From a virus, in IMG/VR virus record IMGVR_UViG_3300042467_001553, positions 1 through 43,435 of that record: a stretch of 43,435 nt of DNA; one strand, written 5' to 3'. Positions 26,738 through 40,307 of the stretch are shown here, piece by piece. The notes beneath the pieces were generated by a model. The model was not told the DNA's origin. It searched no databases and saw nothing but the letters and a program-made list of their open reading frames with translations. The stretch's first letter is position 1; every line of letters begins with the position of its first letter. A program made the translations under genes and the position numbers.

Positions 26738-27017
26738 TGAACATTTAATGGATTTGGCACCTATTGAGGAGTTAATCGACTATTGTGTTGAGTTGGAAGG
26801 TCAGGTGCTTGAAAAAAAAATAGATGATACTTATAGTAAAGAAGAAATTTATTTACAGATACTAAAAGACATCTATGATAGTTGTATCAATACTTTGACC
26901 GATGATGAGTTGGCTCAAACATTTGAAGAACTACCAAAAACAGATTTTAAACAATCTGTAATAAATTTAAAAAAATACATGGAGGCCGTATCAGAATTAT
27001 ACGGTATTAGATTATGA
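26706..27017 (+). CDS. Helical protein, paralogue of 14397 gene
   Basis: The start at 26706 (MKNINQIFKGN) aligns with 14397, so the upstream ATG at 26673 is rejected. Conserved features are the IEELIDYCVELEGQVLEKKI helix and a DDELAQ region. Overlaps the zinc-ribbon gene by 32 nt, as in the first block. Confidence 0.65.
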   Translation: MKNINQIFKGNEHLMDLAPIEELIDYCVELEGQVLEKKIDDTYSKEEIYLQILKDIYDSCINTLTDDELAQTFEELPKTDFKQSVINLKKYMEAVSELYGIRL

Positions 27018-27331
27018 GTGAAACAACAAAACAAAAAGTAAAAATGATTATGGTCCAAGAAAAACCATATATCGTATCGTTAGAGAAAATCGAAATCGGT
27101 GATAATGTTATAGTTACAGTTGCAGGTCAACACGGATCACTTATAAAATGTGAAAACGAGACAATTTATAATTTGGTCACACAAAATAAACTTTCTTCAA
27201 ATCAGGCGTATAAGGTCTTCATGGAACCAGAAAACATTAAATTTCAAGCAGATCAAATTGAAAAGATCTTGGAAAATGATGGGTTAATGGACGTTGAGTT
27301 TGAGAATGGAGTATATAAATACAGCATATGA
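27014..27331 (+). CDS. Uncharacterised 105-aa protein
   Basis: Beta-rich N-terminal half, helical C-terminal half ending KILENDGLMDVEFENGVYKYSI. The end is repeated almost unchanged as a fragment at 36353-36436. ATGA overlaps on both sides. Function unknown. Confidence 0.65.
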   Translation: MSETTKQKVKMIMVQEKPYIVSLEKIEIGDNVIVTVAGQHGSLIKCENETIYNLVTQNKLSSNQAYKVFMEPENIKFQADQIEKILENDGLMDVEFENGVYKYSI

Positions 27332-27438
27332 CAAACGTTTTAGAAACTTATGTTCATCTATATGGAATATTATTTGTAATCAACATAATCGGGTTTTATT
27401 TACTCTATAGATATTTTAAGAAAAGAAAAAAGAAATAA
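27328..27438 (+). CDS. 36-aa single-TM peptide
   Basis: One hydrophobic helix ending in a Lys/Arg cluster (YRYFKKRKKK). A clear paralogue lies at 36433-36540 with the same end, and both overlap their neighbours the same way, so this is a real conserved small gene. Confidence 0.65.
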   Translation: MTNVLETYVHLYGILFVINIIGFYLLYRYFKKRKKK

Positions 27439-27653
27439 TGGCTTATATTGAACACAACTTCTTTCCCTTAAAAGTTTGGGTTAGAAATGAATACATGTAT
27501 CAACATAAAAAAGGACTTGGTGAATTGACACCAGGAGTTATAATCTCTGTTAGATGCATGCCAGGTCAAGCGGCACTATTTCAGGTGTTATTGGAAAATG
27601 GTGTTTTAAGAGACAAACTCCCAAGTCATGCTTTATGGTTAAGATCAAGATAA
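27438..27653 (+). CDS. MAYIEHN protein, short copy
   Basis: 71 residues nearly identical in plan to the first 66 residues of the 36540 protein (KVWVRxEY, VIISVRCMPGQAALFQVLL, RDKLPSHAL). It then ends, where the other copy continues for another 140 residues, so it looks like a truncated copy or a minimal form. Confidence 0.65.
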   Translation: MAYIEHNFFPLKVWVRNEYMYQHKKGLGELTPGVIISVRCMPGQAALFQVLLENGVLRDKLPSHALWLRSR

Positions 27654-27689
27654 ATTTATTTTGAACGAAAAGTTTAGTATAAATACCTA

Positions 27690-27720
27690 TTGTCTGAACT
27701 TTAAAAAAATCTTATATTTG
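27690..27720 (+). promoter_or_regulatory. Bacteroidota-type promoter
   Basis: TATATTTG at 27713-27720 with TTG 20 nt upstream (27690-27692), 4 nt before the ATG at 27725. Confidence 0.58.
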
Positions 27721-27724
27721 TATT

Positions 27725-28042
27725 ATGGAAAAAGTTATTATTGAAAAAGATAAATTACGCAAATGTGTGATCTTGGAAAAAGATGGTGAATATGTATTTC
27801 GTTCAGGACATGGAGAGTTCCACGAAGATGTTGCAAATAGATCCAAAGAACTTGAACCAGAATTAAAGGATTGGAGAATTCTTGGTGGTGGAAGAGTTAG
27901 ATGGTCTGATCTTGGAATTAGAGTATATGGACGATCAATTGATTATGGTTATATGGATAAAGAGATCGTGGAAGAACTTGTTTCAGAGTTCGCAAAAGAA
28001 AATGGTGTTGAATTTACTAACGATACAGGAATAGGATATTAA
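27725..28042 (+). CDS. Janus/Ocnus (PHPT1)-like phosphohistidine phosphatase
   Basis: A 105-aa protein matching the PHPT1/janus fold by eye. The HGEFHEDV segment aligns with EYHADI, which bears the catalytic His. RILGGGRVRW aligns with LGGGRI, IRVYGRSIDYG with IHVYGYSMAYG, and the end NDTGIGY with the family's NDGY. The family removes phosphate from histidine (and lysine) side chains. It lies just before two repeat-tailed genes under its own promoter. It is unusual in a phage and might counter a histidine-phosphate signal (inference). Confidence 0.75.
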   Translation: MEKVIIEKDKLRKCVILEKDGEYVFRSGHGEFHEDVANRSKELEPELKDWRILGGGRVRWSDLGIRVYGRSIDYGYMDKEIVEELVSEFAKENGVEFTNDTGIGY

Positions 28043-28043
28043 A

Positions 28044-28613
28044 ATGAAAAATCCATCAGGAAAAAAATTAGATAAGATTTTGTTCAAACTATTTGACCAA
28101 ATGATTGAAGGTGTTGACCAATACAATCATAGTGGTAGTTTATGGATCATCTTTACCAATGAACGACAATGGGTTGTTGAATATACCGAAGGAGGAACTC
28201 TATGGTATAACTACAAACTATTCAAAAATGAAATGGAATTGGTTGGTATGGATTGCGTTGAAAATAAAGAATACATAACCAGATGGTTTGAATATAGATT
28301 TTTGAATAAACCAAAGGTTGATAAAACTTGGGACAATCCGGTAGATGTGTGGTATCAAATTGAAGACACCATTCAAAATGGGGTGAAGAACACCAAGGTT
28401 AGGTCCGCATTGCGCAGGATATCAGTTGAAGATACCATTCAAAATGGGGTGAAACACACCGGCGGAAAATTGGCTTCGCTGGCCGACCTGGTTGAAGACA
28501 CCATTCAAAACGGGGTAAAGGAGACCCAAGAGTGGCGTTTGGATGCGACTCATTATATTATAGACACAATTGAAAATGGAGTGAAACAAACAAAACGAAG
28601 TTATGATGGTTAA
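28044..28613 (+). CDS. Repeat-tailed protein B (TIQNGVK repeats)
   Basis: The N-terminal domain (residues 1-95) is paralogous to the 17008 and 28735 genes. The C-terminus has four repeats ([IV]EDTIQNGVKxT) with 10-residue intervals; the stop falls inside the fourth spacer, and repeat-like DNA continues non-coding to 28730. The first three spacers are clearly richer in G+C than the flanking genes. 189 aa; function unknown. Confidence 0.72.
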   Translation: MKNPSGKKLDKILFKLFDQMIEGVDQYNHSGSLWIIFTNERQWVVEYTEGGTLWYNYKLFKNEMELVGMDCVENKEYITRWFEYRFLNKPKVDKTWDNPVDVWYQIEDTIQNGVKNTKVRSALRRISVEDTIQNGVKHTGGKLASLADLVEDTIQNGVKETQEWRLDATHYIIDTIENGVKQTKRSYDG

Positions 28614-28730
28614 AGAAAACAGAGAACGAAATATGTCGTTGAAAATGGGGTGAAACACACTACAGGAACATCAACTGACTTACGATATAAAAGGGTTGAA
28701 TATACCATTCAAAACGGAGAAAAAATTAAA
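28359..28730 (+). repeat. CRISPR-like array B with decaying tail
   Basis: Repeats lie at 28359-28394, 28425-28460 and 28491-28526, and a diverged one at 28557-28592, all with 30-nt spacers. Two further diverged repeats (28626-28661 and 28695-28730) follow with 33-nt gaps beyond the gene's stop. The repeat core is GACACCATTCAAAATGGGGT. The last copy keeps only its left two thirds and runs up to the next gene's start. Confidence 0.77.
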
Positions 28731-28734
28731 TAAA

Positions 28735-29925
28735 ATGAATAATCCATCAGGAAAAAAATTAGAGAAACTTGTCTTTGGGTTGTTTGACCAAATGATTGAA
28801 GGTGCAGACAAGTATATTACAGAACAAGGTTCAACTTGGTTGATCTTTACCGAAGACAAAAGATGGGTGGTTGAATTCACAAAAGATAAAACTTTGTGGT
28901 TCAACTATAACCTATTTCAAAATGAGTTAGATCTAGTCAGTAAGGACTGCACTCAAGAAAGAGATTTGATCAAGAACTGGTTTGAATCAAGATTTTTGGG
29001 TATTGATGTGGTTGAGGAAAGTTTAAGCACTGCTGGAAAACCATTGAAGGTTAAAGATACCATTCAAAATGGGGTGAAACACACTTGGGATTTAAATGCG
29101 GATGAAATTTCTGCAGTTAAAGACACCATTCAAAATGGGGTAAGACACACCGATTATTTTGAATATACTAATAATACCTTAGTTGAAGATACCATTCAAG
29201 AGGGGGTGAAAGAAACCAATTACAAAATTGGTTACCGAAAAGGTGGTATTGAAATCGCAATTCAAAATGGTGTAAAAGAAACACGAACATTCAATTCACC
29301 ACCAATTAAATACATTGAAGACACCATTCAAAATGGGGTGAAAGAAACAACACCTAGTGGTTATTTGGGTTCAATGGAGATGAAAGGGAAAATAGTTCAT
29401 CAAATTGAATCTCCAAAACAAAATAATGAGGTTGAAGACACCATTCAAAATGGGGTAAGACACACCGAAGTAGATGGGATGAGGATAAGGAGTGGGGTTA
29501 AGGACGCCATTCAAAATGGAGTAAAGGACACTGTGTTAGCAAAAACGGATAGATTAGTCGGTATTGAAGACACCATTCAAAGTGGTATTAAAGACGTATC
29601 TGATAGACCATTCACATTTGGATCAAGTATTGATGATGCCATTGAAAATGGTGTTAAAGAAACTAGAGAGGTAACATTCTTGAACCAAATGTTTATTGAA
29701 GAAACAATTGAAAAAGTTACACCAGATGGTGGAGTTGAAATTCCTTCTGATATGAAAGTTGGAACTGGATTGATGAATATGGTAAAAGAATTACGTGATA
29801 ATGAATGGAGAACATTTGAACATCACGATAATTGGATTAAAAACGAACATTATCCAAATCCAACATTTGAACAACAATTTGATACAGGTAATGCTTATAA
29901 AGAAATGTTAAAAACTAAAATTTAA
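28735..29925 (+). CDS. Repeat-tailed protein C (TIQNGVK repeats)
   Basis: The start at 28735 (MNNPSGKKLEKL) aligns with the paralogues; an upstream TTG lies in repeat DNA. Residues 1-95 are the shared domain. Ten repeats follow, with 10-residue variable intervals except one longer interval (27 residues). The last repeats are diverged (IDDAIENGVKET, IEETIEK). A unique C-terminal segment of about 65 residues follows (MVKELRDNEWRTFEHHDNW). 396 aa. It is the longest and most protein-like member of the family. Confidence 0.74.
   Translation: MNNPSGKKLEKLVFGLFDQMIEGADKYITEQGSTWLIFTEDKRWVVEFTKDKTLWFNYNLFQNELDLVSKDCTQERDLIKNWFESRFLGIDVVEESLSTAGKPLKVKDTIQNGVKHTWDLNADEISAVKDTIQNGVRHTDYFEYTNNTLVEDTIQEGVKETNYKIGYRKGGIEIAIQNGVKETRTFNSPPIKYIEDTIQNGVKETTPSGYLGSMEMKGKIVHQIESPKQNNEVEDTIQNGVRHTEVDGMRIRSGVKDAIQNGVKDTVLAKTDRLVGIEDTIQSGIKDVSDRPFTFGSSIDDAIENGVKETREVTFLNQMFIEETIEKVTPDGGVEIPSDMKVGTGLMNMVKELRDNEWRTFEHHDNWIKNEHYPNPTFEQQFDTGNAYKEMLKTKI
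29050..29730 (+). repeat. CRISPR-like array C, ten repeats in frame
   Basis: Repeats start at 29050, 29116, 29182, 29248, 29314, 29431, 29497, 29563, 29629 and 29695. The period is exactly 66 nt except for an 81-nt interval at 29350-29430. Repeats vary mostly at third codon positions (GGG/GGT/GGA, GTG/GTA/GTT, GAC/GAT). Spacers share no sequence. G+C is lower than in arrays A and B. Confidence 0.8.
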
Positions 29926-29929
29926 AACT

Positions 29930-30580
29930 ATGATGAAAATTGAAGCAAAAAAAGACGGTAAAGGAAACATTGTAATATCGGAAGATTCCTTTGAAATGAT
30001 ACTGGCTTGTTTAGACAATCAAAAATTTGTTGGTGAACAGCCACAAAATGGTGATTCGCTTTCGGTAGGCGAAGACAACTATTGGAAAGGACAAGAAGAT
30101 ATTCAAAACACTATTGACCATTATAATAGAGAATGTAGAAAAATATTACATCAAAAATATGTTTTAAGAACAGAATGTGATGGTTATTTTCTTGCAAAAA
30201 AATACGAACATCAAACAGAAGATGCTGAATGGACTGGTGAAGATGTTGGATTAGTATATGAACTATTCAAAGATACAAGAATAATTTATAATGAAACAAG
30301 AGATTTATTACCATTGGATGGCTCGGAAAAAATTATAGAGGGAACTGAACCTATTGGTAAAACGAAAGATGGTTGGATTGCAGTTAAACCTGAACCAACA
30401 CCTTGGTTAATTGAAAGACCATTAAGGTATGATTATCAATATTTGACAATTTCAGAAGACGGTAAAACAAATAGAACTTGGAAACAAGATGAAATTAACA
30501 AAATTCAAGAATTATTTAATGGTGGGGGAGAAAAAAGAAAAGAAAAAGATATTACAGACGAACCTTCAATCGAAGACTAA
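29930..30580 (+). CDS. Uncharacterised protein preceding first attC
   Basis: A 216-aa acidic soluble protein, 4 nt after the repeat-tailed gene, whose stop lies 13 nt before the first attC. No domain recognised. Because the first attC can be rebuilt with sequence after the last attC, this gene may have been the original gene associated with the resident attC. Confidence 0.65.
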   Translation: MMKIEAKKDGKGNIVISEDSFEMILACLDNQKFVGEQPQNGDSLSVGEDNYWKGQEDIQNTIDHYNRECRKILHQKYVLRTECDGYFLAKKYEHQTEDAEWTGEDVGLVYELFKDTRIIYNETRDLLPLDGSEKIIEGTEPIGKTKDGWIAVKPEPTPWLIERPLRYDYQYLTISEDGKTNRTWKQDEINKIQELFNGGGEKRKEKDITDEPSIED

Positions 30581-30593
30581 ATGTAGTATTACT

Positions 30594-30685
30594 GCTAACG
30601 TTGAAGCATTTGTGTCAGGCGGGCATAGATGCAACTTAATATTAACCGCAAGCTGTCCGCCCGCTTGCACAAATGCAGTGTTAGC
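30594..30685 (+). repeat. attC 1
   Basis: R'' GCTAACG and R' GTTAGC; the L arms ATTTGTGTCAGGCGGGC and GTCCGCCCGCTTGCACAAAT pair imperfectly. The R'' matches the sequence after attC 14 rather than the adjacent R', showing that this is the left part of the resident site. Confidence 0.8.
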
Positions 30686-30698
30686 TGCCGTTTAATTA

Positions 30699-30904
30699 TG
30701 GAAAGAACAATTAGAACATTAAAAGAAATGCGTGAAAAGGCTGAAAGGTCTTTTATTGAAAACTCTATCATTGTCCACAGGGCAAGTTTGGACAGTCCAA
30801 TACCCGATACAAAGTCGGATTTGGAAATGATTATTGAGTTGAACCAAGCAATATCAATTTTGCAAAATGCTACTATGGCGAAGTCTGTCGTAAATGGCAG
30901 CTAA
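30699..30904 (+). CDS. Cassette 1 gene, 68-aa helical protein
   Basis: The ATG at 30699 just after attC 1 is chosen; the frame also opens inside the attC loop (30629). The sequence is helical (IRTLKEMREKAERSF). Its TAA stop is part of the next attC's GCTAACG. Function unknown. Confidence 0.6.
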
Positions 30905-31028
30905 CGAAAAAGGCTTTGTGCAGGTGGGGATTTGGAACACGAAAGTTTCAAATCAGTACAAAAGCCTATTAGAATTACTGCTGTTTAATTTAGCAATTCA
31001 GCCCCACTTGCACAAAACCGATGTTACC
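30900..31028 (+). repeat. attC 2
   Basis: R'' GCTAACG, R' GTTACC; L arms TTTGTGCAGGTGGGG and CCCCACTTGCACAAA differ at one pair. Long loop. Confidence 0.8.
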
Positions 31029-31086
31029 TGCCGTTTTTTGTCGGTAACTCACAGATTTGATTTATAAACAATTAAAATAAAGTAAA

Positions 31087-31446
31087 ATGGAAAATTTAAA
31101 AGTAGTAAAAATTGATTCAGATTCATTAGAATTTGATAATGGAATGATTTTATTTTCAGACCACGACCAACAATGCTGTGAGCATCACTATTTGTCTTTG
31201 TCAGATTTGACATTGGATGATTTTAAAGGATTGGAATTTGATTTGTCAAATGATGATTTCTTTGAAAGAATAGAAGATTATGGAATAGCCTTAAAGCCTA
31301 AAAATGGACATCCTGTTAGAATACCTGGTTATGGCTCAAACAACGGCTACTATTCATCAAATCTTGCTTTGATTATAACTAATACTGATGGTCGTGGTGT
31401 ATTCAAGCAATATGATATTACTGAATGTCAAGAATGGAACGATTAG
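31087..31446 (+). CDS. Cassette 2 gene, 119-aa protein
   Basis: Contains SDHDQQCCEHHYLSL and a GSNNGYYSSNLALIIT segment, a pattern I have seen in small phage and bacterial proteins (DUF7448-like, tentative). Soluble and acidic. The start follows an A-rich leader. Confidence 0.65.
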   Translation: MENLKVVKIDSDSLEFDNGMILFSDHDQQCCEHHYLSLSDLTLDDFKGLEFDLSNDDFFERIEDYGIALKPKNGHPVRIPGYGSNNGYYSSNLALIITNTDGRGVFKQYDITECQEWND

Positions 31447-31466
31447 CGGTCTGTCTTAAAATGGCA

Positions 31467-31596
31467 GGTAACGGTACTTGTGTAAATTTCAGTGCCGTAA
31501 AATTAGTATAAACTTTAAATTAAAAATAAAATGAAAAATCAAGTAGAAAATTATCAACAAAGCACTGCACAGGCATTGAATTTACACAATGTTAGC
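31467..31596 (+). repeat. attC 3, with start codon in loop
   Basis: R'' GGTAACG, R' GTTAGC; arms TTGTGTAAATT / AATTTACACAA. The long loop carries an A-rich leader and an ATG at 31531 that opens the frame of the following cassette gene. Confidence 0.78.
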
Positions 31597-31764
31597 AGTA
31601 GTGCCAAAGGTGGACTTCGTAAAATTAAAGATGCAGAGCAACCTTGCCTACATCCTGACCATAACCCACCGATGCACATTTATTTAACAGCAGGAACTTA
31701 TGAATATACCTGCCCTTCTTGTGGCAAGGTTACGACATTTACAGTACCATTGATTACGTTTTGA
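31531..31764 (+). CDS. Cassette 3 gene, zinc-ribbon protein started in attC 3
   Basis: 77 aa. The first 20 codons lie in attC 3; the cassette proper begins at GTT AGC (codons 21-22). The C-terminal half has CLHPDH and YTCPSCGK, a likely zinc ribbon. A shorter product could begin at an internal ATG before HIYL. If the attC start is used, the protein's N-terminus comes from the neighbouring cassette's recombination site. Confidence 0.65.
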   Translation: MKNQVENYQQSTAQALNLHNVSSSAKGGLRKIKDAEQPCLHPDHNPPMHIYLTAGTYEYTCPSCGKVTTFTVPLITF

Positions 31765-31774
31765 TGGCATTACT

Positions 31775-31857
31775 GCTAACGGTTTCAAATATGAGAAGTA
31801 AATTTTACCTATAAAAATTTGGAAAATCAAAATTTATTTCTTATATTTGTTGTTATA
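31775..31857 (+). repeat. attC 4, promoter-bearing
   Basis: R'' GCTAACG, R' GTTATA; arms CAAATATGAGAAGTAAA and TTTATTTCTTATATTTG pair. The right arm is also a promoter -7 box. Confidence 0.78.
31818..31849 (+). promoter_or_regulatory. Promoter inside attC 4
   Basis: TTTG (31818-31821), 20-nt spacer, TATATTTG (31842-31849). Faces cassette 4. A second -7-like box (TATTTTTG) lies at 31867-31874. Confidence 0.68.
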
Positions 31858-31898
31858 AGTATGTATTATTTTTGTTTTACCTTATAAAAAAATTAAAT

Positions 31899-32174
31899 AT
31901 GGAAAATTATATTATTAAAACCCCTGAAATAGAGTTTAATAAAGAAGATGTATCAGATTATAAGTTCTTAGGTACATTTAAAGATGTTGATAGTGGAATA
32001 CCTAAAGTAATTGTATCAAAAATAGAAGATACATTAAAAAATTTAGATTCTAATTTGAAAGTCACACCAATGATGGTTGACCCAGAAACTTTAGATATTG
32101 TATTCGGTATATTAGAAACAAATGAAGAAAGTGTTAAGTTAAAATATCATATAAAAATCACAAAACAAAAATAA
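31899..32174 (+). CDS. Cassette 4 gene, 91-aa protein
   Basis: The ATG at 31899 follows an A-rich leader; an upstream TTG is unlikely. Acidic alpha/beta protein (VIVSKIEDTLKNLDSN, LDIVFGILE), no recognised domain. Confidence 0.6.
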   Translation: MENYIIKTPEIEFNKEDVSDYKFLGTFKDVDSGIPKVIVSKIEDTLKNLDSNLKVTPMMVDPETLDIVFGILETNEESVKLKYHIKITKQK

Positions 32175-32181
32175 TATTACT

Positions 32182-32300
32182 TATAACGGTTGCAAATATA
32201 AGCAGTTATTAACGAAACTTAATTAAAAGAACAAAATTAAATATTAACCAACAACATTTATTTGGAAGTAATGAAATAATTGCTTATATTTGTTGTTATA
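32182..32300 (+). repeat. attC 5, promoter-bearing
   Basis: R'' TATAACG, R' GTTATA; arms GCAAATATAAGCAGTTATT / AATAATTGCTTATATTTG. Same right end as attC 4. Confidence 0.78.
32261..32292 (+). promoter_or_regulatory. Promoter inside attC 5
   Basis: TTTG (32261-32264), 20-nt spacer, TATATTTG (32285-32292), 21 nt before the ATG of cassette 5. Confidence 0.68.
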
Positions 32301-32313
32301 AAACGTTATTTAT

Positions 32314-32514
32314 ATGGAAATAAAATTTTATTGGAACGGAAGTTTTGCTGGTACTAATCACAGTATGACTATAAATAAAAAAGAGATTAGATTAGGTGGA
32401 GTTGTTTCAAACGAAGATGAAGCAAAACTGGAAGCAATTGAAATACTCAAAAGAGATTATAATATTGACTACAATGTTGATGAAATAAAATTTGAGTGGG
32501 GTGGTCGTTTATAA
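32314..32514 (+). CDS. Cassette 5 gene, 66-aa protein
   Basis: A small beta-alpha protein (MEIKFYWNGSFAG, then EAKLEAIEILKRDY, ending IKFEWGG). The symmetric strand pattern suggests a small sandwich. Function unknown. Confidence 0.6.
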   Translation: MEIKFYWNGSFAGTNHSMTINKKEIRLGGVVSNEDEAKLEAIEILKRDYNIDYNVDEIKFEWGGRL

Positions 32515-32519
32515 TGTTT

Positions 32520-32649
32520 TATAACGGTTGAGTATAACCGAAGGTGGGGATTAAAAGTGCTAAACCCAGACTTACCTACAAAAGTAAATTAGAAGCACAA
32601 TAACTGATTTTGGGAACTACCGCCCCACTTTTGGTTATACTTTGTTAGC
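32520..32649 (+). repeat. attC 6
   Basis: R'' TATAACG, R' GTTAGC; arms GTATAACCGAAGGTGGGG / CCCCACTTTTGGTTATAC; long loop without a clear start. Confidence 0.78.
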
Positions 32650-32670
32650 GGTATGTAAAATTTACGTATT

Positions 32671-32856
32671 ATGAAAGAAATAGAATTGTTAATCAGAAGA
32701 GAAAATGCTTTATCTAAGCAAAATTTGTTATACCAATTATTAGGTAAATTTGGTGATGATTTACCTAAACAGATACAAGATGCTGTAAGATTGATGGCAG
32801 AAGAAGAAGGTAGAGAGTATAACAAATTAGGTACTAAGGTTGCGGAACGGTTGTAG
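32671..32856 (+). CDS. Cassette 6 gene, 61-aa helical protein
   Basis: Almost wholly helical and charged (KEIELLIRRENALSKQNLLYQLLGKF, then IQDAVRLMAEEEGREY). It resembles a small DNA-binding or antitoxin-like helix bundle, but no family is clear. Confidence 0.58.
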   Translation: MKEIELLIRRENALSKQNLLYQLLGKFGDDLPKQIQDAVRLMAEEEGREYNKLGTKVAERL

Positions 32857-32870
32857 TAAATTTTATTACC

Positions 32871-32951
32871 GCTAACGTTTTGCGGCTTTGTGTCAGGCTG
32901 CGAAGCGTTGGCATTGAGCGGTCGGGCAGCTTGCACAAAACCGCTGTTATA
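32871..32951 (+). repeat. attC 7
   Basis: R'' GCTAACG, R' GTTATA; arms GCGGCTTTGTGTCAGGCTGC and GGGCAGCTTGCACAAAACCGC, of the same type as attC 1. Confidence 0.78.
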
Positions 32952-32988
32952 CGCTGGCACGGTTAATTAACAACAAAATTTAATTGAA

Positions 32989-33366
32989 ATGAATATAGAT
33001 GACTTATTTAAAATCGAACCACAAGAGCCATACAAGATGAGCCAAAAAGAGTTCGTTGAAAAAACAAAATCTGTTTTAGAAAAAATCTACAATGCTTATT
33101 CAAAAGGATGGCAAAGTAGGGTTTTGAGAGATGGAGAACACCCCGAAGAAAGTGTATGTGATAAATGCACTGGTTGTGGTGTTTTCTTGGAAAATGGAGA
33201 AGAAAGAGATTGTGTTCAAGATAGAGAACAAGGAGATTGTTTTCACAGATTTTGTGATTACGAACAGGTAGGAATGGATTTAGAAACTCATCTTGCAGAT
33301 ATATCCGATTTACTTTCGGTAGATGAAATTGTCAATACGGAGCAGAATGGTAGTGCTTGCGTATAA
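32989..33366 (+). CDS. Cassette 7 gene, Cys-rich 125-aa protein
   Basis: A helical N-terminus (MSQKEFVEKTKSVLEKIYNAY) and a middle with CDKCTGCGVF, DCVQD, DCFHRFCDY: enough Cys/His for one or two zinc sites. The TAA stop is part of attC 8. Confidence 0.63.
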   Translation: MNIDDLFKIEPQEPYKMSQKEFVEKTKSVLEKIYNAYSKGWQSRVLRDGEHPEESVCDKCTGCGVFLENGEERDCVQDREQGDCFHRFCDYEQVGMDLETHLADISDLLSVDEIVNTEQNGSACV

Positions 33367-33413
33367 CGTCCGATGATAAACAATCGTTTTAATGTTGTTT
33401 ATCATTTGTTATG
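33362..33413 (+). repeat. attC 8, short hairpin type
   Basis: R'' TATAACG, R' GTTATG; arms ATGATAAACAA / TTGTTTATCAT with loop TCGTTTTAATG. Nearly identical to attC 10 and 12. Confidence 0.82.
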
Positions 33414-33452
33414 TGTAGTAATTTTGTGGGTGGAAATTCTTAATTTGAACTA

Positions 33453-33502
33453 TTTATATATAAAATCTCAGATATATTCAGTTCTGAGATTTTATATATA
33501 AA
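33453..33502. repeat. 20-bp perfect inverted repeat in cassette 8
   Basis: Arms 33453-33472 and 33483-33502 are perfect complements with a 10-nt loop, 21 nt before the cassette 8 gene. Not an attC. It could be an RNA hairpin or an operator. Confidence 0.65.
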
Positions 33503-33523
33503 CTTAAAATAAAAGACAGAACT

Positions 33524-33796
33524 ATGAAAGAGAATAGAATTAAGAGATTTAAAAACTTCTTAAAAGAAGGAAAATCATATTTAGATGGTTCTGGTGAAAG
33601 AGGATTTTCACCGATGGAAATCAAACAACTAAATATAGGTGATAAAATAACTTTTCACTTTAATAAATCTTTAATGGACGGTGTTATAACAGATAAAGAA
33701 GAACTTCAAAACGGAGACACTTTGTTTAGTATAGAAACAGAAAAAGGAGTATTGAAGAAAAGTCATAGAAATTTAGAAGTTTATAAAATTTATTAG
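33524..33796 (+). CDS. Cassette 8 gene, 90-aa protein
   Basis: N-terminus IKRFKNFLKEGKSYLDG is of a style common to phage capsid-associated proteins. The body is a small beta barrel-like segment (LNIGDKITFHFNKSLMDGVI). This may be a phage gene caught in a cassette. Confidence 0.6.
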   Translation: MKENRIKRFKNFLKEGKSYLDGSGERGFSPMEIKQLNIGDKITFHFNKSLMDGVITDKEELQNGDTLFSIETEKGVLKKSHRNLEVYKIY

Positions 33797-33819
33797 TAGG
33801 TGGGTAAAAAATTATTACA

Positions 33820-33951
33820 CATAACGGTTGGGCGGTTGGCGTTCGTTGCCGACTTTGGAACACGAAACTTTAATTTAAAAACAAAATTTGATATGGAAAA
33901 CAACACTTCAATTAACCACGAAAACGGCAATGACGCTAACCGCTTGTTAGC
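33820..33951 (+). repeat. attC 9, with start codon in loop
   Basis: R'' CATAACG, R' GTTAGC; arms GCGGTTGGCGT / ACGCTAACCGC. The loop has an A-rich leader and an ATG at 33893. Confidence 0.75.
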
Positions 33952-34174
33952 GGCTGGTGCGGATTTAATCGGAAAGTTTTACGAAATGTTAAATCTTGAT
34001 GATTCCGTAATGCACCGTTTTAAAATAAAGCATGTACGCACAGAAACGACTCCTGCTATTGACCATTCCGATGGCAGTCATTCACCAAGCAAAACACATG
34101 TTTTGGTTTCGGCAGAAGGTTCAGGGTGGTTTCGTTTGTATGGCGGTAAAACTGATAGAGTGGTGGAGGAGTAG
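33893..34174 (+). CDS. Cassette 9 gene, 93-aa protein started in attC 9
   Basis: The ATG at 33893 in the attC loop is preferred over a frame start at 33800 that reads back through the attC arm. The first 17 codons are attC sequence; a shorter start (MLNLDDS) lies inside the cassette. The body has a VHVLVSAEGSGWFRLYG-like beta end. G+C is higher than in surrounding genes, consistent with foreign origin. Confidence 0.58.
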   Translation: MENNTSINHENGNDANRLLAAGADLIGKFYEMLNLDDSVMHRFKIKHVRTETTPAIDHSDGSHSPSKTHVLVSAEGSGWFRLYGGKTDRVVEE

Positions 34175-34182
34175 CACTTGCC

Positions 34183-34234
34183 GCTAACGTCCGATGATAA
34201 ACAATCGTTTTAATGTTGTTTATCATTTGTTATA
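34183..34234 (+). repeat. attC 10, short hairpin type
   Basis: R'' GCTAACG, R' GTTATA; arms and loop identical to attC 8. Confidence 0.82.
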
Positions 34235-34255
34235 AGTTGTTTTTTATTATATTTG
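34226..34255 (+). promoter_or_regulatory. Promoter spanning attC 10 and cassette 10
   Basis: TTTG (34226-34229) lies in the attC right arm; TATATTTG (34248-34255) lies in the cassette, spacing 18 nt. The ATG at 34259 follows at once. Confidence 0.58.
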
Positions 34256-34258
34256 AAT

Positions 34259-34669
34259 ATGGTAGATTTAATAGTAAAGGAAATTGATGACTTTTATATG
34301 AATGAATTCAATCTTTTAAAAGAAGAAGTTCAAAAAAACATAAAAGTTGAGATTATAGATAGTTCAAAATTTGGGGATATAGGTGGGAGATTTAATTTTT
34401 TGAAACAGATAATATATGTAAATTCAGAACAATCTAATGAGAATATGTTTCTAACACTTCTACATGAATATGGACATTTTCTAACTTTTAGAGATTATAT
34501 CTATGTATATAATGTTTGTCCTTACGAATATGGTAGAAATGTATTAAAACGAGAATTAGGTGCGTATTATCATGGGTGGAAATTCATAAAATCTAACTCA
34601 ATTGGAGTTTCAAAAAATAAATGGAGAGAACACCATATTCAAATATTAAAAGATTATGAGATATTATGA
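34259..34669 (+). CDS. Cassette 10 gene, zincin-like protein (HEYGH)
   Basis: 136 aa. HEYGH at residues 69-73 (LLHEYGHFLTF) is an HExxH zinc motif, followed about 25 residues later by RELGAYYHGWKF, whose Glu could be the third ligand, as in ImmA/IrrE- or M48-like zincins. The ATG at 34259 is preferred over TTG 34253. It may cleave a host regulator or repressor (inference). Confidence 0.68.
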   Translation: MVDLIVKEIDDFYMNEFNLLKEEVQKNIKVEIIDSSKFGDIGGRFNFLKQIIYVNSEQSNENMFLTLLHEYGHFLTFRDYIYVYNVCPYEYGRNVLKRELGAYYHGWKFIKSNSIGVSKNKWREHHIQILKDYEIL

Positions 34670-34677
34670 AAATAACT

Positions 34678-34749
34678 TATAACGTTTTGCACATACACGC
34701 TGTGAGCGTTGTATTGAGGGCAGGGAAATAGCGTGTATGTGCTGTTATA
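34678..34749 (+). repeat. attC 11
   Basis: R'' TATAACG, R' GTTATA; arms GCACATACACGCT / AGCGTGTATGTGC are perfect complements. Confidence 0.82.
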
Positions 34750-34802
34750 GGCTGTATTTAAAAGTTTTTAGCGAAGGAATTAACAATTAAAATAAACATA
34801 AA

Positions 34803-35360
34803 ATGAAAAAAGTAAAAGAAGCATACGATGAAATTTTAAAAGCATTACATAAACACAGAGAAATTTGCGTTTTTGATGTAAGTGAATTGGAAAGAAAAGC
34901 CAAAACACATTTATTTGGACTTGAACTGAAAGAAGTTTACGGGCTAAATATTGACTCTAAACAAATTAAAAATATGGATTGGGTTAGGTTTGGAGAATAT
35001 AGGGCGATTGGGATGTGGGGCGAAAAACACAGAAGAACTATAATTTGGAGCGTTGATGGAATACAGCCCGAAGATGAAATGTTATTACAAATATGCTTTC
35101 CAACTGGTGCATACATTTTTGGAGAAGATTATGCCGTAAATTTCTTTCAAAAGTTTTGGCTTGAATTAAAATCATTTACGCCTGATTACATAGACGAAGT
35201 AAATCTCGGATTATATTGGAAATTAGAAAACGCAAAAGATGTTTTTAACTCGTTTGATTTGCTTTTAAAAAAGTACTACGACCTTAATAAAGAAGATGCG
35301 AAACAAAGGAGAATTGAAAAGATGAAAAAAGAACTTGAGCAACTTGAAAACTCTAAATAG
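34803..35360 (+). CDS. Cassette 11 gene, 185-aa protein
   Basis: The largest cassette gene. Helical N-terminus, central beta region with several Trp (MWGEKHRRTIIWSVDG), and a basic coiled-coil C-terminus. No family recognised. Confidence 0.65.
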   Translation: MKKVKEAYDEILKALHKHREICVFDVSELERKAKTHLFGLELKEVYGLNIDSKQIKNMDWVRFGEYRAIGMWGEKHRRTIIWSVDGIQPEDEMLLQICFPTGAYIFGEDYAVNFFQKFWLELKSFTPDYIDEVNLGLYWKLENAKDVFNSFDLLLKKYYDLNKEDAKQRRIEKMKKELEQLENSK

Positions 35361-35391
35361 TGCAATGGCAAAAAAACTTTTAAATATTGCC

Positions 35392-35443
35392 TATAACGTC
35401 TGATGATAAACAATCGTTTTAATGTTGTTTATCATTTGTTATA
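35392..35443 (+). repeat. attC 12, short hairpin type
   Basis: Same arms and loop as attC 8 and 10 with one change near the left end (TCTGATG for TCCGATG). Confidence 0.82.
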
Positions 35444-35520
35444 TTCAGTTATTTTTTCAATTATTTCAAAAAACCGTTTTTTTTTTATTAATATATAGAT
35501 TATAAAAAAAAATTAAAACT

Positions 35521-35853
35521 ATGAGAAAATTAAAATTTTTAAAAACATTTGAATCTCTTTTGGAAGATGATTTCTCTAAAGAAAATATATTGGACAATAT
35601 TTTAAGTAAAATAGAGAAAGAATTTATGAATTCACCTATTAAATTTACAGAAATACTTAAAAGAGGAGATAATAGTATCTACATTAAATATGAAATTGAC
35701 TGGGAGATGCCAGAGACTATGGAAGATTGGTGGGATTATGAGGAATTTATAGAAAAACATTTAAATAAATTATCAGATAATTTGAATATATTTGAATATA
35801 ATTATGATTTAACTAGTATTAGAATATATCCCCGTAAAAATAAAAATAATTGA
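35521..35853 (+). CDS. Cassette 12 gene, 110-aa acidic protein
   Basis: N-terminus KLKFLKTFESLLEDD is like short capsid-targeting starts in large phages. Body acidic and mixed. As with cassette 8, a phage-type gene in a cassette is suggested. Function unknown. Confidence 0.6.
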   Translation: MRKLKFLKTFESLLEDDFSKENILDNILSKIEKEFMNSPIKFTEILKRGDNSIYIKYEIDWEMPETMEDWWDYEEFIEKHLNKLSDNLNIFEYNYDLTSIRIYPRKNKNN

Positions 35854-35854
35854 A

Positions 35855-35982
35855 TATAACGGTCGCAGATATGCCCAGTTTGGGATTAAATAGTATAAAC
35901 TTTAAATTAATATAAAATGAACAAAGAAGAACAAAATTTGAATAACGCAGAGAACCCCAAATTGGATATATCTGATGTTAGC
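35855..35982 (+). repeat. attC 13, with start codon in loop
   Basis: R'' TATAACG, R' GTTAGC; arms AGATATGCCCAGTTTGGG / CCCCAAATTGGATATATCT. The loop shares AGTATAAACTTTAAATTAA with attC 3 and has an ATG at 35917. Confidence 0.78.
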
Positions 35983-36153
35983 GGTAGTTATTTATGGATT
36001 CCTGTAACGGAGCGACTACCTGAAACCGAAGATTACTATGCAGTTAGATTTGAAAACGGCATTGAAGATGAAAAACCTTTTAGGATTAGACCAAAGAAAA
36101 ATATCTTCGGTTTTATGACTATGGAGAAAGTTACACATTGGGCGGTTCTATAA
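35917..36153 (+). CDS. Cassette 13 gene, DUF551-like protein started in attC 13
   Basis: The cassette part encodes LWIPVTERLPE...VTHWAVL, the N- and C-terminal signatures of DUF551. The domain begins almost at the cassette edge, and no in-frame ATG lies before it within the cassette. The only ATG is in the attC 13 loop, exactly 20 codons before GTT AGC, the same distance as in cassette 3. This is the best case for an attC-supplied N-terminus. Confidence 0.7.
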   Translation: MNKEEQNLNNAENPKLDISDVSGSYLWIPVTERLPETEDYYAVRFENGIEDEKPFRIRPKKNIFGFMTMEKVTHWAVL

Positions 36154-36158
36154 TTACC

Positions 36159-36211
36159 GCTAACGTTTTGCGTGTATAAAATCGTTTTAATGTTTTATAC
36201 ACGCTGTTAGC
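36159..36211 (+). repeat. attC 14, last of array
   Basis: R'' GCTAACG, R' GTTAGC; arms GCGTGTATAAAA / TTTTATACACGC, loop TCGTTTTAATG as in attC 8, 10 and 12. The sequence that follows its R' (AGTAGTAC) pairs with attC 1's R''. Confidence 0.82.
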
Positions 36212-36318
36212 AGTAGTACGGTAATTAACCACAAATGCTCATTCGGAGAACTGAACCTTTTTCTTTTCTTTTTTGTGGGTTGGACAAAATAAATTTGAAA
36301 AATTTAAAAATAAATAAT

Positions 36319-36363
36319 ATGAAATTAGAAACAATTGAAAATGGAGTTAAAGATGGGATTTGA
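36319..36363 (+). other. 14-codon frame with one repeat unit
   Basis: Met-Lys-Leu then ETIENGVKDGI, matching the 12-residue repeat of the repeat-tailed proteins, followed by a stop. Probably a remnant of such a gene left at the array's right flank. Confidence 0.4.
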
Positions 36364-36436
36364 TAAAAAAATATTAGAAAATGATGGGTTGTTGGATGTT
36401 GAATTAGATAATGGGGTTTACAAATATAGTCTATGA
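36353..36436 (+). pseudogene. 3' fragment of a 27014-gene paralogue
   Basis: Encodes KKILENDGLLDVELDNGVYKYSL, matching the last 22 residues of the 27014 protein; the first 80 or so residues are absent. The overlap with the next gene (ATGA) is kept. It marks a recombination joint next to the cassette array. Confidence 0.65.
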
Positions 36437-36540
36437 CGTTACTTGAAACATATGTACATGTGTTTGGGATTTCTTTAACAATAATATTATTGGGAGGATA
36501 TCTTACATACAGATACTTTAAGAAAAGAAAGAAAAAATAA
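36433..36540 (+). CDS. 35-aa single-TM peptide, paralogue of 27328
   Basis: Same layout and end (YRYFKKRKKK) as the 27328 peptide; overlaps its neighbours by ATGA and TAATG. A conserved small membrane gene. Confidence 0.63.
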   Translation: MTLLETYVHVFGISLTIILLGGYLTYRYFKKRKKK

Positions 36541-37172
36541 TGGCTTACATTGAACATAATTTTTATCCTTTAAAAGTTTGGGTTAGAGACGAATACTTTT
36601 ATCAGGGTAAAAATGGAAAGGGTAATTTCACTCAAGGGATTATTATTTCTGTGAGATGTATGCCAGGTCAAGCGGCCTTATTTCAAGTTCTATTAGATAA
36701 TGGGGTTATGAGAGATAAACTCCCGTCACATGCACTACTAACAAAACCTGAATTACCAAATCCAGATCTTCCATTTCATTATTTACAATTATGGAATTGT
36801 TTTTCATATAATTTCACACTTCTTAAATTAAATTTTGTTTCAGGTGGACCTGTTGAAGTTTATATGAAAGATAGAAAATTTTATTCGGGTAAATATTTTG
36901 CCACTATAAATTGGGGTTCAAATGATATTAATACTGATATCACATTGTCCGAAGATCCAATGGAACATAAATCCCATCACATAATATTATTAGATAACGG
37001 ACAAATTGCCTTACAACCTAATAATAGAATTAAATGGTCCGAACCAAGTTTTGTGACCAAACCCTTTCCTGAAAAACCAGATTACCTCGTTTGTAATGAA
37101 TTTTATAATGTGGAAGACCATGAAAAATGGCACACAGAAGACAGTGAGAGAATGTTTTATGATAACGAATAA
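36540..37172 (+). CDS. MAYIEHN protein, long copy
   Basis: Residues 1-66 match the 27438 protein. The extra C-terminal 140 residues contain a VEVYMKDRKFYSGKYFATINWG strand pair and an acidic end. The shared VRCMPGQAALFQVLL segment is the most conserved part. Function unknown. Confidence 0.68.
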   Translation: MAYIEHNFYPLKVWVRDEYFYQGKNGKGNFTQGIIISVRCMPGQAALFQVLLDNGVMRDKLPSHALLTKPELPNPDLPFHYLQLWNCFSYNFTLLKLNFVSGGPVEVYMKDRKFYSGKYFATINWGSNDINTDITLSEDPMEHKSHHIILLDNGQIALQPNNRIKWSEPSFVTKPFPEKPDYLVCNEFYNVEDHEKWHTEDSERMFYDNE

Positions 37173-37222
37173 TAACATATCTCATTGGGCGATCAACGCC
37201 ATAATACACAAATTCATTTATT

Positions 37223-37444
37223 ATGAAAACACTTGATTTACATGGAGTTAAACACGCTGACGTTGCCAAGTTAATGGATCAATTTATTTGGGAACAGATG
37301 AATAAAAAATCTAAGGAGATTGAAATCATCACCGGCATAAGCCAAACGATGAAAGATGTGGTCATCAAAAATCTAAAAGATTATGAGTTCACCTATAACG
37401 AAGCGTGGAACAACCCTGGTAAGTTGATAGTAAGTTTAGTTTAG
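37223..37444 (+). CDS. Smr-domain-like small protein
   Basis: The 73 residues follow the Smr pattern: LDLHGVKHADV at the start, IEIITGIS in the middle, a helix, and a final GKLIVSLV strand. Smr domains cut or nick RNA or branched DNA. The typical GKG after the middle strand is replaced by GIS, so nuclease activity is uncertain. Confidence 0.68.
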   Translation: MKTLDLHGVKHADVAKLMDQFIWEQMNKKSKEIEIITGISQTMKDVVIKNLKDYEFTYNEAWNNPGKLIVSLV

Positions 37445-37461
37445 TGAAAAAAAAGTGTGAT

Positions 37462-37490
37462 CCCCCGGTTGAATAAGTCGGGGGTTTTTT
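37462..37490 (+). terminator. Intrinsic terminator after Smr gene
   Basis: CCCCCG / CGGGGG with an 11-nt loop and six T. It overlaps the promoter of the next gene. Confidence 0.82.
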
Positions 37491-37499
37491 CTATCTTTG
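37469..37499 (+). promoter_or_regulatory. Bacteroidota-type promoter overlapping a terminator
   Basis: TTG (37469-37471) in the terminator loop, 20-nt spacer, TATCTTTG (37492-37499), 4 nt before the ATG at 37504. Terminator and promoter share sequence. Confidence 0.65.
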
Positions 37500-37503
37500 T
37501 GTT

Positions 37504-39240
37504 ATGTTGCAAGTAGAAGGTAAAACATTTCATAAGTTTATTGAGTTAAAGTCTTATAAAACGCAGACTTTCAAAAACTCCTGTCCTATAGAGTATGGAC
37601 CTGTATATCGTAACGGGAATAATGAATGTATTATAAAAAAAACAGGTAGATTTTATTACGACGAACTCTTTTTGTCTGAAGAAGACTATGTTAAAAATTT
37701 TGGAAACATATGGGCTCAAGTAGACTTTACAAGACAACGAGTTTTTATTGAAGAAGGGGAAGACTCAATTTCAATAAAGGCTCAGTATTACCATAAATGG
37801 AGAATAGTAGGAAAAAGATTCTTTGTGGTAAGAAAACACACAAACTACCTATCCTTCAATTTCAAAACCAAAATGTTCTACACAGGTACATTCAAAGGAA
37901 AGAATAAAACAAAGATTGGAAACTCCATGAAGGTTGATCCAAGTTTTAGAGCTATTAGAGATTTAGAATACACTTTGAAAATTCATAATTCTGTTAGACC
38001 TGAAAGTTATTTTTATTTTTTTTTAGAAAAAATATGGGATAGACTTGGACTTGAAAACACACAAAACTTTGAGACAAAAAATCCTTTTACCCATTATAGT
38101 TTAACAAAGTATTTGATCAAAGGTGTAAAAATACCAAACAATTGGATTCAATACACCGACACATTTGTCCCAATCAAAACTCTTAGAAGTTGTGATATGA
38201 ACTTAGTTGATGGGGTTATGAAAATGTTAAAATTAAAAGGGTCAAAAATTAAAAGAATTCTTAATGAAATCCCAAATGTCAATTTTGATAGACTTACAGG
38301 TCTCTACTATTTGTTAGGAATTGATAGATTCAATAAACTACCTGATAAAATATTCGATTATCAATTCTCAAATGATAGATATGGTAACCCCATTGAAGAA
38401 AATCCTGCGGGAGGACAATATTGGTATTGTACCCATCAGGACTATTTTAAAGATTTTAAAAGAAAGTTTCCTGAGTTAACTAATAAAGAAAAAGATAGAA
38501 TCCTAACCCTTGGTGAACATCTTGATGATGCGGTATTTCATACACTTATTGAACATTTAGAGTTCAAAAAGAAACTAAATGAACTTGGTGAAGATGTTAA
38601 GTTGAAATTTCAAAATAGAAGTACCTTCAATTTAGAACACGAAGAGTTTAGTAGATTACTTACTTCATACACAAGAGGTGAGGTTGAAAGATATTATGGT
38701 GAAATTGATACTTTAGAAACACCTATTGAACACGAGGGTGAAACATATTATCCTGTACTATTGAGAAAAACACTAGATTACGAGAAAGAATCACAACACC
38801 AACATAATTGTGTAAGAACATATTGTGAAAGACCCGATTCAATAATCTTCTCAATTCGAAAAGGTTCTATAAATGGTCAAGAAAGGATTACTGTTGAATA
38901 CCAATTTAGAAAAAATGAAATTCTTAATGTTCAAGAAAGAGCAAGGTTTAATGAGTTACCAAATGAAACATTTTCTCATGTTGCAAAAATTCAGTTGGCA
39001 AATATTAATTTAGAATATAAACTTGGGACACTTAAACTTCCAAAGTTGACTAAAAGATATCGTAATGGTAAAATAACGGAACAGTTCTCGACTTTTGAAA
39101 TTGACTTTGATAATGGAACAAGAGTTATTCCTATGACACCAAGATGGAATTATGAAACACTTGAGTTCAATTCATGGCAAAACGAAATTTTAGATATGCA
39201 ACAAGTTCCTGTGAATGATTTTTGGGATGAATTACCATAA
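37504..39240 (+). CDS. PcfJ-like protein
   Basis: A 578-aa soluble protein. The C-terminal third has the PcfJ pattern: YYPVLLRKTLDYEKE, then HQHNCVRTYCERPDSIIFSIR, then QERARFNELPN. PcfJ-like proteins occur on conjugative elements and phages; their activity is unclear. The N-terminal two thirds are Lys/Tyr/Phe-rich without recognised domain. It has its own promoter. Confidence 0.75.
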   Translation: MLQVEGKTFHKFIELKSYKTQTFKNSCPIEYGPVYRNGNNECIIKKTGRFYYDELFLSEEDYVKNFGNIWAQVDFTRQRVFIEEGEDSISIKAQYYHKWRIVGKRFFVVRKHTNYLSFNFKTKMFYTGTFKGKNKTKIGNSMKVDPSFRAIRDLEYTLKIHNSVRPESYFYFFLEKIWDRLGLENTQNFETKNPFTHYSLTKYLIKGVKIPNNWIQYTDTFVPIKTLRSCDMNLVDGVMKMLKLKGSKIKRILNEIPNVNFDRLTGLYYLLGIDRFNKLPDKIFDYQFSNDRYGNPIEENPAGGQYWYCTHQDYFKDFKRKFPELTNKEKDRILTLGEHLDDAVFHTLIEHLEFKKKLNELGEDVKLKFQNRSTFNLEHEEFSRLLTSYTRGEVERYYGEIDTLETPIEHEGETYYPVLLRKTLDYEKESQHQHNCVRTYCERPDSIIFSIRKGSINGQERITVEYQFRKNEILNVQERARFNELPNETFSHVAKIQLANINLEYKLGTLKLPKLTKRYRNGKITEQFSTFEIDFDNGTRVIPMTPRWNYETLEFNSWQNEILDMQQVPVNDFWDELP

Positions 39241-39254
39241 TTTTATTATATTTG
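39221..39254 (+). promoter_or_regulatory. Possible Bacteroidota-type promoter
   Basis: TATATTTG at 39247-39254 with TTTG at 39221-39224 (22-nt spacer), 15 nt before the ATG at 39270. Confidence 0.52.
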
Positions 39255-39269
39255 TAAAAAACATATAAA

Positions 39270-39551
39270 ATGACAGAAAGACAACAAGAACTTTTGATTG
39301 AAATGGTTACCAAAATTGATGAAGCCAGAACTTATAATCTAATTTCAGGTGTCTTGACATTCTTGTGGTTATTTGAATTCATATACTTAATTTTTTGGGA
39401 TAACAATCTCAATATAACTTTATATTTTACTATTTGGTTGGTTTGTATGGTTGGTTGGGTTCACATGGATAGAAAGTTTAAAAAGAGTATGAAAGAATAT
39501 AACGAATTAAAAGACGAATACATAACAGAATTTGGAGATGAAAACATATAA
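39270..39551 (+). CDS. Two-TM membrane protein
   Basis: 93 aa with two hydrophobic helices (about 20-41 and 50-69) between a helical N-terminus and an acidic, Lys-rich C-terminus. Function unknown. Confidence 0.65.
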   Translation: MTERQQELLIEMVTKIDEARTYNLISGVLTFLWLFEFIYLIFWDNNLNITLYFTIWLVCMVGWVHMDRKFKKSMKEYNELKDEYITEFGDENI

Positions 39552-40119
39552 ACAACTACCGATCCCTGAAGACACGGCTTGGGATAGATCAACATTATAC
39601 GGGAGATTACATTGGAGAATTAGAGATTTTATAACCAGTTGTCATAACTTAATCAAGTGGTTTCCAACTATTTGGAACGATAGAGATTGGGATGATAGTT
39701 TTATCTTAAAGATTCTACAAAAGAAAATTGAATTTCAAAGAAAAGAACTTGTTAATTCCAACCGACACATGAGAATTGAACTTGATAATCGTGATATGAC
39801 TTTAGCTCTTAATTTACTTGAAAGAGTAAATGAAGAATACTACCAATTGGAGTGTATGGATTATTGGGATAACGATATGATATTCGACGATGTTCCTGAT
39901 AAACCTGGATTTAAATCAATTGATTTTGAGGAAAAGTGGGAAAAATATGATGAATACCTTTCTAAATATCCTTCTTCAGTTCGTGCGGTTGTTAAAGAAC
40001 ATGGAGAACAAGATGACAAAAAGCGTTTATGTTTATTGGTTTCCCATTATAATCATAATAAAGCAAATAAACTACTATTCAGAGTGCTTGAGGAAAGACT
40101 TGCATTTTGGTGGGATTAA
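39538..40119 (+). CDS. Uncharacterised 193-aa Trp/Asp-rich protein
   Basis: The ATG at 39538 is preferred over TTG 39532. It contains the segment WFPTIWNDRDWDDSFI, which I have seen in other large phages, and is acidic and helical. Overlaps the previous gene by 14 nt. No function known to me. Confidence 0.67.
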   Translation: MKTYKQLPIPEDTAWDRSTLYGRLHWRIRDFITSCHNLIKWFPTIWNDRDWDDSFILKILQKKIEFQRKELVNSNRHMRIELDNRDMTLALNLLERVNEEYYQLECMDYWDNDMIFDDVPDKPGFKSIDFEEKWEKYDEYLSKYPSSVRAVVKEHGEQDDKKRLCLLVSHYNHNKANKLLFRVLEERLAFWWD

Positions 40120-40130
40120 AAAATAAAATT

Positions 40131-40307
40131 ATGGATAAAAGAATGATTCAAGGACAGTTAATGAATGAGCATCGTTTGATATCAAACGAGATTGCCGATA
40201 TCAAAGCATCAAGTTTTGAATTAACTAAAGAACAAAAACAAAGAATCTCTGAACTTGAAATTAAATTAAAAGTAATTGCTCAAAAGTTATATACACTATA
40301 CCTATAG
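40131..40307 (+). CDS. 58-aa coiled-coil protein
   Basis: The ATG at 40131 is chosen over 40107, which overlaps the previous gene. Entirely helical with heptads (LMNEHRLISNEIADIKA, then QRISELEIKLKVIAQKL). Confidence 0.58.
   Translation: MDKRMIQGQLMNEHRLISNEIADIKASSFELTKEQKQRISELEIKLKVIAQKLYTLYL

Follow-up and report, generated by a model that had tools for sequence, protein, structure and literature searches.

An integrase-less attC cassette array in a phage genome and a putative integron-like system of Bacteroidota phages

A gene-cassette array in a phage genome

The DNA analyzed here, referred to as the window, is the complete 43,435-base viral record IMGVR_UViG_3300042467_001553 of IMG/VR, a collection whose records are often fragments. 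It has a GC content of 31.8% and carries, from 30596 to 36209, a series of small genes alternating with hairpins that resemble the attC sites of integrons. Sites were identified with a scanner for the anatomy TAAC, 5-7 nucleotides (nt), arm, loop, arm, 2-4 nt and GTTA, using Markov-shuffled sequence as the background; the scanner and the pattern searches are biased toward the TAAC/GTTA core. Fourteen attC-like hairpins were found, all on the + strand, compared with 0.25 expected by chance per 43 kb when both strands are counted, and the scanner detected none in the rest of the window. All 14 have TAACG at their left and TGTTA at their right end, and they bound 13 units containing one + strand gene each, an arrangement of tandem imperfect inverted repeats with conserved R cores and variable loops. 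The original prediction, made from the sequence of the window alone, had proposed these 14 repeats and 13 units as an attC/cassette architecture. The scanner and the gene list agree with the former, and the latter is borne out by the excess of sites and by the self-complementary unit ends described below. It had also noted phage-type genes around the array and the lack of an integrase, and indeed neither a recombinase nor an attI-like motif was found within the window. An Rfam search of the hairpins gave no match.

The array, all features of which lie on the + strand, is bordered on the left by an outer end (GTAGTATTACTGC, 30583-30595) complementary to the sequence 3' of site 14, and on the right by an outer end (GCAGTAGTACGGT, 36210-36222) complementary to the left flank of site 1. 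Site 1 (30596-30683) precedes cassette gene 1 (30698-30904, 68 amino acids, aa), the stop codon of which overlaps the TAAC of site 2 (30902-31026). Gene 2 (31087-31446) encodes a DUF7448 protein of 119 aa, and similar DNA is found in Winogradskyella phage Peternella_1. The start codon of the following gene lies within the loop of site 3 (31469-31594; gene 3, 31531-31764, 77 aa, with a weak zinc-ribbon match), site 9 (33822-33949; gene 9, 33893-34174, 93 aa) and site 13 (35857-35980; gene 13, 35917-36153, 78 aa, DUF551, with 91% identical DNA in the huge phage LR756500). Sites 4 (31777-31855) and 5 (32184-32298) contain a Bacteroidota-type promoter, TTTG-N20-TATATTTG, at 31818-31849 and 32261-32292, respectively, and are followed by gene 4 (31899-32174) and gene 5 (32314-32514, 66 aa). 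Further along lie site 6 (32522-32647), gene 6 (32671-32856, 61 aa), site 7 (32873-32949) and gene 7 (32989-33366), which encodes a cysteine-rich protein of 125 aa. Site 8 (33364-33411) precedes gene 8 (33524-33796, 90 aa), while site 10 (34185-34232) precedes gene 10 (34259-34669, 136 aa), a borderline match to ImmA/IrrE-like metallopeptidases that has a homologous cassette in another phage array. The remaining elements are site 11 (34680-34747), gene 11 (34803-35360, 185 aa), site 12 (35394-35441), gene 12 (35521-35853, 110 aa) and site 14 (36161-36209). No function could be assigned to genes 1, 4, 6, 8, 9, 11 and 12.

Sites 8, 10, 12 and 14 have the loop core AATCGTTTTAATGTT in common and are referred to as short-type sites. 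Among 18 such sites from the window and other records, 98.4% of the aligned cells pair, and 50 cells are changed on both sides compared with 14.7 in shuffles. The arms co-vary around a constant loop, and structures slid out of register fail.

Two IMG/VR contigs with other dataset prefixes match the window almost perfectly, L282 with 99.993% identity over 24220-38577 and L286 with 100% identity over 35639-43435. Because of these matches, which cover the array with its flanks, the assembled sequences confirm that the array and both flanks belong to one molecule; that they might be separate molecules was one of the circumstances named in the original prediction as speaking against it.

Cassette ends and the crossover point

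In all 13 units of the window, the bases that follow GTTA at the 5' end are complementary to those that precede the next TAAC at the 3' end of the same unit, in an uninterrupted run of 5-6 bases and usually more; complementarity between the two flanks of one site is at background level. Over 18 arrays, runs of at least 5 bases pair the own ends of 84/116 units, compared with 0/134 across sites. Since complementary own ends are expected if both ends meet in a circular cassette, this pattern can be read as a signature of excisable cassettes.

Near-identical cassettes also turn up in unrelated neighborhoods, with divergence setting in exactly at TAA^C on both sides. In the contigs L016 and L106, for example, a site plus its gene are 100% identical within unrelated contexts that diverge immediately outside TAA^C. 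Cassettes shared among related phages thus part at the unit boundary, as a recombination point would require. By comparison with class 1 integrons, the putative crossover was placed at the left TAA^CG. This would assign each hairpin to the gene downstream of it and corrects the layout first proposed for the array.

A recombinase and an attI-like site in related phages

Of the 32 viral records that were searched first, using an IntI model, 13 have a tyrosine recombinase gene, intact or broken, close to the array. Nine of these recombinases were aligned to seed a recombinase-first search of phage contigs, which returned a family of tyrosine recombinases of ~267 aa at 90 viral loci, 80 of which were kept. 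Same-strand attC sites lie upstream of the recombinase gene at 56 of the 57 loci having at least 1.5 kb of upstream DNA. Around the recombinases, 339 sites were counted upstream (in 357 kb) vs. 1 downstream (in 499 kb), and 8 were on the other strand. The median gap between site and recombinase is 460 nt, and many of the arrays in related phages have 3-17 sites.

An attI-like motif was found between array and recombinase at 65 of the 68 recombinase loci examined, so that in related phages, and not within the window, an integrase stands next to attI and an array. At this motif, the NNNNNTAA that ends the last cassette runs directly into a conserved CTATTATATATA-type sequence. The fusion lies 41-78 nt before the recombinase match begins and has the form TAA^C-TATTATATATA. 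Information content drops from high values right of TAA^C to low values left of it, and in 37 of 50 cases the two ends of the last cassette pair with each other (runs of at least 5). Judged from these sequences, the position and behavior of the candidate site are as in an integron attI. On Bacteroidota chromosomes, a similar motif, TATATAA..G^TTA, follows the recombinase gene.

The phage recombinases belong to the Xer/phage-integrase superfamily, and their catalytic R, K, H, R, H and Y positions are invariant. The best profile is NF040815 (XerA/integron integrase), which scores 165-194 bits at a cut-off of 220; XerC/D models score about 131-164 bits at a cut-off of about 330, and curated full-length membership of XerA, XerC or XerD is not reached. 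The TIGR02249 score is likewise under that model's cut-off. NF011946 and TIGR02249 were discarded as markers of integron integrases, as proteins of control genomes match them too. The closest folds and sequences are those of XerA and IntI4 (5hxy, 4a8e, 2a3v), as judged with a model of moderate confidence (pLDDT 77). In a quick tree, the phage recombinases lie near but apart from nearly all Bacteroidota ones, with one row from a Bacteroidota genome inside, and a one-clade test neither supports nor rejects a phage clade (p-AU 0.12). The phage identity of the recombinase-bearing records is supported by terminase matches (E < 1e-15) in 14 of the 33.

Some copies of the recombinase are broken (L161 and L162, with internal deletions), and in the 465-kb phage contig L160 a GIY-YIG nuclease gene splits the recombinase gene (13336-14735). 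At two recombinase loci of candidate-phylum (CPR) bacteria, no attC array was found nearby. The closest plasmid relatives (~47% identity) include a recombinase beside tet(X3) on Acinetobacter plasmids (L366, 4043-4708), near which no attC site was found.

Orientation of the cassette genes

Relative to the TAACG strand, the gene is sense in 324 phage units, antisense in 2 and unclear in 43. In contrast, all 26 Bacteroidota chromosomal units near related recombinases are antisense, as in class 1 integrons, where the TAACG strand of the control AB571791 is antisense to the cassette genes. Because the phage genes are inverted relative to attC, the hairpin sits upstream of its own gene rather than at its 3' end. 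The start codons of genes 3, 9 and 13 inside their upstream hairpins agree with this inverted layout. When 16 pairs of shared cassettes with different neighbors were compared, the upstream site was better conserved in 11 and the downstream site in 2. Sites in the same orientation also occur in sequenced isolates. In Muminvirus mymlan, five sites on one strand fall within a block of co-oriented genes that includes methyltransferases, and in Polaribacter phage P12002L three sites precede genes of the same orientation. Of 408 sites, 18 contain a complete Bacteroidota promoter directed into the gene and none contains one in the reverse direction, with 0.8 expected in shuffles.

Distribution, host and cassette content

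The short-type pattern was found in at least 119 stretches of viral contigs vs. 8 in a far larger genome collection (257 Gb), and the viral contigs with such sites reach 465 kb. Among 396 Bacteroidota genomes, a single one, the seed genome, has a short-type site. Bacteroidota chromosomes (L262-L281, L372-L391) carry attC arrays beside XerA-like recombinases without the IntI domain; within Bacteroidetes proper, IntegronFinder 2.0 lists Salinibacter alone with a complete integron (PMC9024848). Single sites with the same loop and different arms are present in three contigs assigned to CPR bacteria (L004, L005, L008).

A Bacteroidota host of the window phage is suggested by the promoter type and by a 1346-aa protein (9012-13052) with a CHU_C-associated Ig-like domain and a weak type IX secretion C-terminal sorting tail. 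Searches with Pfam, PHROGs and PADLOC mostly left the cassette functions without assignment. About three of 140 cassettes in related phages encode DNA methyltransferases, and the majority have no known function; the 13 window genes gave no confident defense-related match. The suggestion that the array stores counter-defense genes therefore finds an echo in the few methyltransferases of the relatives and none in the window itself. A glutamine synthetase gene is located at 1655-2773.

Origin of the array in the window

The gene to the left of the array (29930-30580, + strand) has a homologue in a 256-kb relative (G009), where arrays, attI and recombinase surround it. Because the homologue stands between two array stretches, the left-flank gene is probably former cassette cargo. 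In G009, a sequence like window 36210-36341 lies directly upstream of a sequence like 29700-30496, and in the window these two pieces lie on opposite sides of the array, each meeting phage repeats at AGAAACAATTGAAAA. The approximate junctions, both on the + strand, are at 29652-29706, where the phage repeat gene passes into a cassette gene, and at 36319-36345, where a cassette gene start passes into phage sequence. In the simplest reading of these reciprocal junctions, a circle running from site 14 through the flank gene to cassettes 1 to 13 would have integrated by a single crossover at the 15-nt repeat AGAAACAATTGAAAA, and the array seems to have entered at this repeat and not via a resident integrase. 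Such an insertion would account for the pairing of the outer flanks of the window array. As a general mark of a founder site this pairing was rejected, being seen solely in the window and in L166.

Paralogous genes built of short VKDTIQNGVKNT-type repeats are located at 17008-17559, 28044-28613 and 28696-29925, and the array may have come in through repeats of this type. The window also contains diverged duplicated blocks, with ~71-82% DNA identity between 13277-14425 and 25673-26737 and 76% between 27261-27622 and 36366-36724.

Discussion

Integrons are usually regarded as a bacterial (and archaeal) device that is now and then picked up by phages. Our results suggest that the window very probably carries the integrase-less cassette array of a phage-specific integron-like system. 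The complete layout in related phages, on the coding strand, would consist of cassettes, each a hairpin followed by a gene, which lead to the attI-like site and then to the tyrosine recombinase gene on the same strand. The recombinase would bind the folded attC strand and join the TAA^CG of one cassette to attI or to a second attC. Cassettes would leave as circles and go in next to attI, as in integrons, and each hairpin, preceding its own gene, could supply a promoter. The sites, the self-complementary ends, the TAA^C breakpoints, the linked recombinase and attI and the orientation are seen in the sequences themselves, and from them we infer the catalysis, the strand used, the expression of the cassettes and a benefit to the phage. 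More generally, Bacteroidota phages, among them some with genomes of several hundred kilobases, probably possess an integron class of their own, with a dedicated recombinase without the IntI domain, a phage attI, inverted promoter-capable cassettes and a cassette pool that is passed around among phages and is largely separate from that of bacterial integrons.

Several observations weigh against this interpretation. The IntI-specific additional domain, present in IntI1, is absent from the phage recombinases, so that strict IntI membership fails. The domain is reported to be a defining and necessary feature of IntI (Messier and Roy, 2001, as cited in PMC9668308), which bears on the proposed use of folded single-stranded attC as the substrate of the phage recombinase. 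Several cassette pairs keep the gene but differ in the hairpin, and the hairpin thus does not always travel with its gene. With the full motif in just 18/408 sites, the Bacteroidota promoter had to be dropped as a general property of the sites. Finally, the window has neither recombinase nor attI; it is a fragment of a genome that may carry an integrase elsewhere.

The original prediction assumed that the phage relies on a host integron integrase. The array would then have been captured from a Bacteroidota chromosomal integron and moved by the host enzyme. Bacteroidota chromosomes bear the same general attC type, related recombinases and a similar attI-like motif, and the window lacks an integrase. 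Moreover, Qi (2023; PMC9892861) showed that IntI1 can recombine attC sites of isolated phages, including one in Polaribacter phage P12002L, with success for 5 of the 6 phage sites tested. We nevertheless regard this origin as unlikely. At the end of the array, relatives that share the attC type have a recombinase and an attI of their own, host arrays have the opposite orientation (26/26 vs. 324:2), and the short-type site is confined to 1/396 Bacteroidota genomes. The phage recombinases also stand apart from nearly all host ones, although a single phage clade is neither supported nor rejected (p-AU 0.12). Dependence on a host integrase is not supported.

Somewhat less likely still is a role of the recombinase in integrating the phage or resolving its genome, with the arrays arising as a by-product of its attachment site. 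Membership of the Xer/phage-integrase superfamily fits such a role, but the attI is placed like that of an integron, has the same core and adjoins a different cassette end in each phage, and many arrays have 3-17 sites. It is very improbable that the repeats take no part in recombination and are simply hairpins of some other kind, such as terminators or promoters, lying between small phage genes: they are intergenic and some contain promoter motifs, but pairing joins the two ends of a unit and does not span a site, the breakpoints fall at TAA^C, recombinase and attI are linked to the arrays, and Rfam gave no match. An assembly chimera of phage and bacterial integron DNA, conceivable for a metagenomic contig, can practically be dismissed in view of the near-identical contigs that bear different dataset prefixes, the dozens of contigs with this architecture and the same-orientation sites in the isolates Muminvirus mymlan and P12002L.

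If a phage-specific integron-like system is confirmed, viruses gain a dedicated means to acquire, lose and reshuffle small genes, which would help to account for the variable gene content of large phages and would put to the test the need for the IntI-specific domain in attC recombination. The attI motif, the recombinase family and the inverted attC provide search signatures for cataloguing phage cassette genes without known function.

Comparison with known systems

Clusters of attC sites in phages have already been published. Qi (2023; PMC9892861), in the part considered, describes attC clusters (CALINs) and integrons in temperate and lytic phages, with methyltransferase cassettes. The attC arrays in phages are a common feature, as are the short-type sites upstream of co-oriented genes in P12002L. 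However, the integrases reported there are located within captured bacterial integrons (Vibrio, P1/class 1, Shewanella), and that part of the report describes no phage-specific recombinase family, attI or systematic cassette inversion. In the literature covered, which included few subscription papers and no preprints, we found no description of a phage-specific recombinase-attI-attC system with an inverted layout. The phage-specific recombinase, its attI and the inverted layout are thus apparently undescribed, although priority is not assured.

The class 1 integron (intI1-attI1-attC, AB571791) shares with the phage system the geometry of integrase, attI and attC, the TAACG..TGTTA core, the TAAC junction at attI and the cassette ends. 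It differs in that IntI1 carries the additional domain and has ~28% identity to the phage recombinase, and in that its genes are reversed relative to attC. The chromosomal recombinases and attC arrays of Bacteroidota (NF040815-like) are closer, as they comprise the closest cellular recombinases, which also lack the IntI domain, together with the same attC core and a similar attI motif. In these, however, the genes have the classical orientation, the recombinase is upstream and co-oriented, and many recombinases have an N-terminal extension. The structures of XerA and IntI4 (5hxy, 4a8e, 2a3v) are the best sequence and fold matches to the phage recombinase, whereas XerA acts in chromosome-dimer resolution and IntI4 carries the extra domain.

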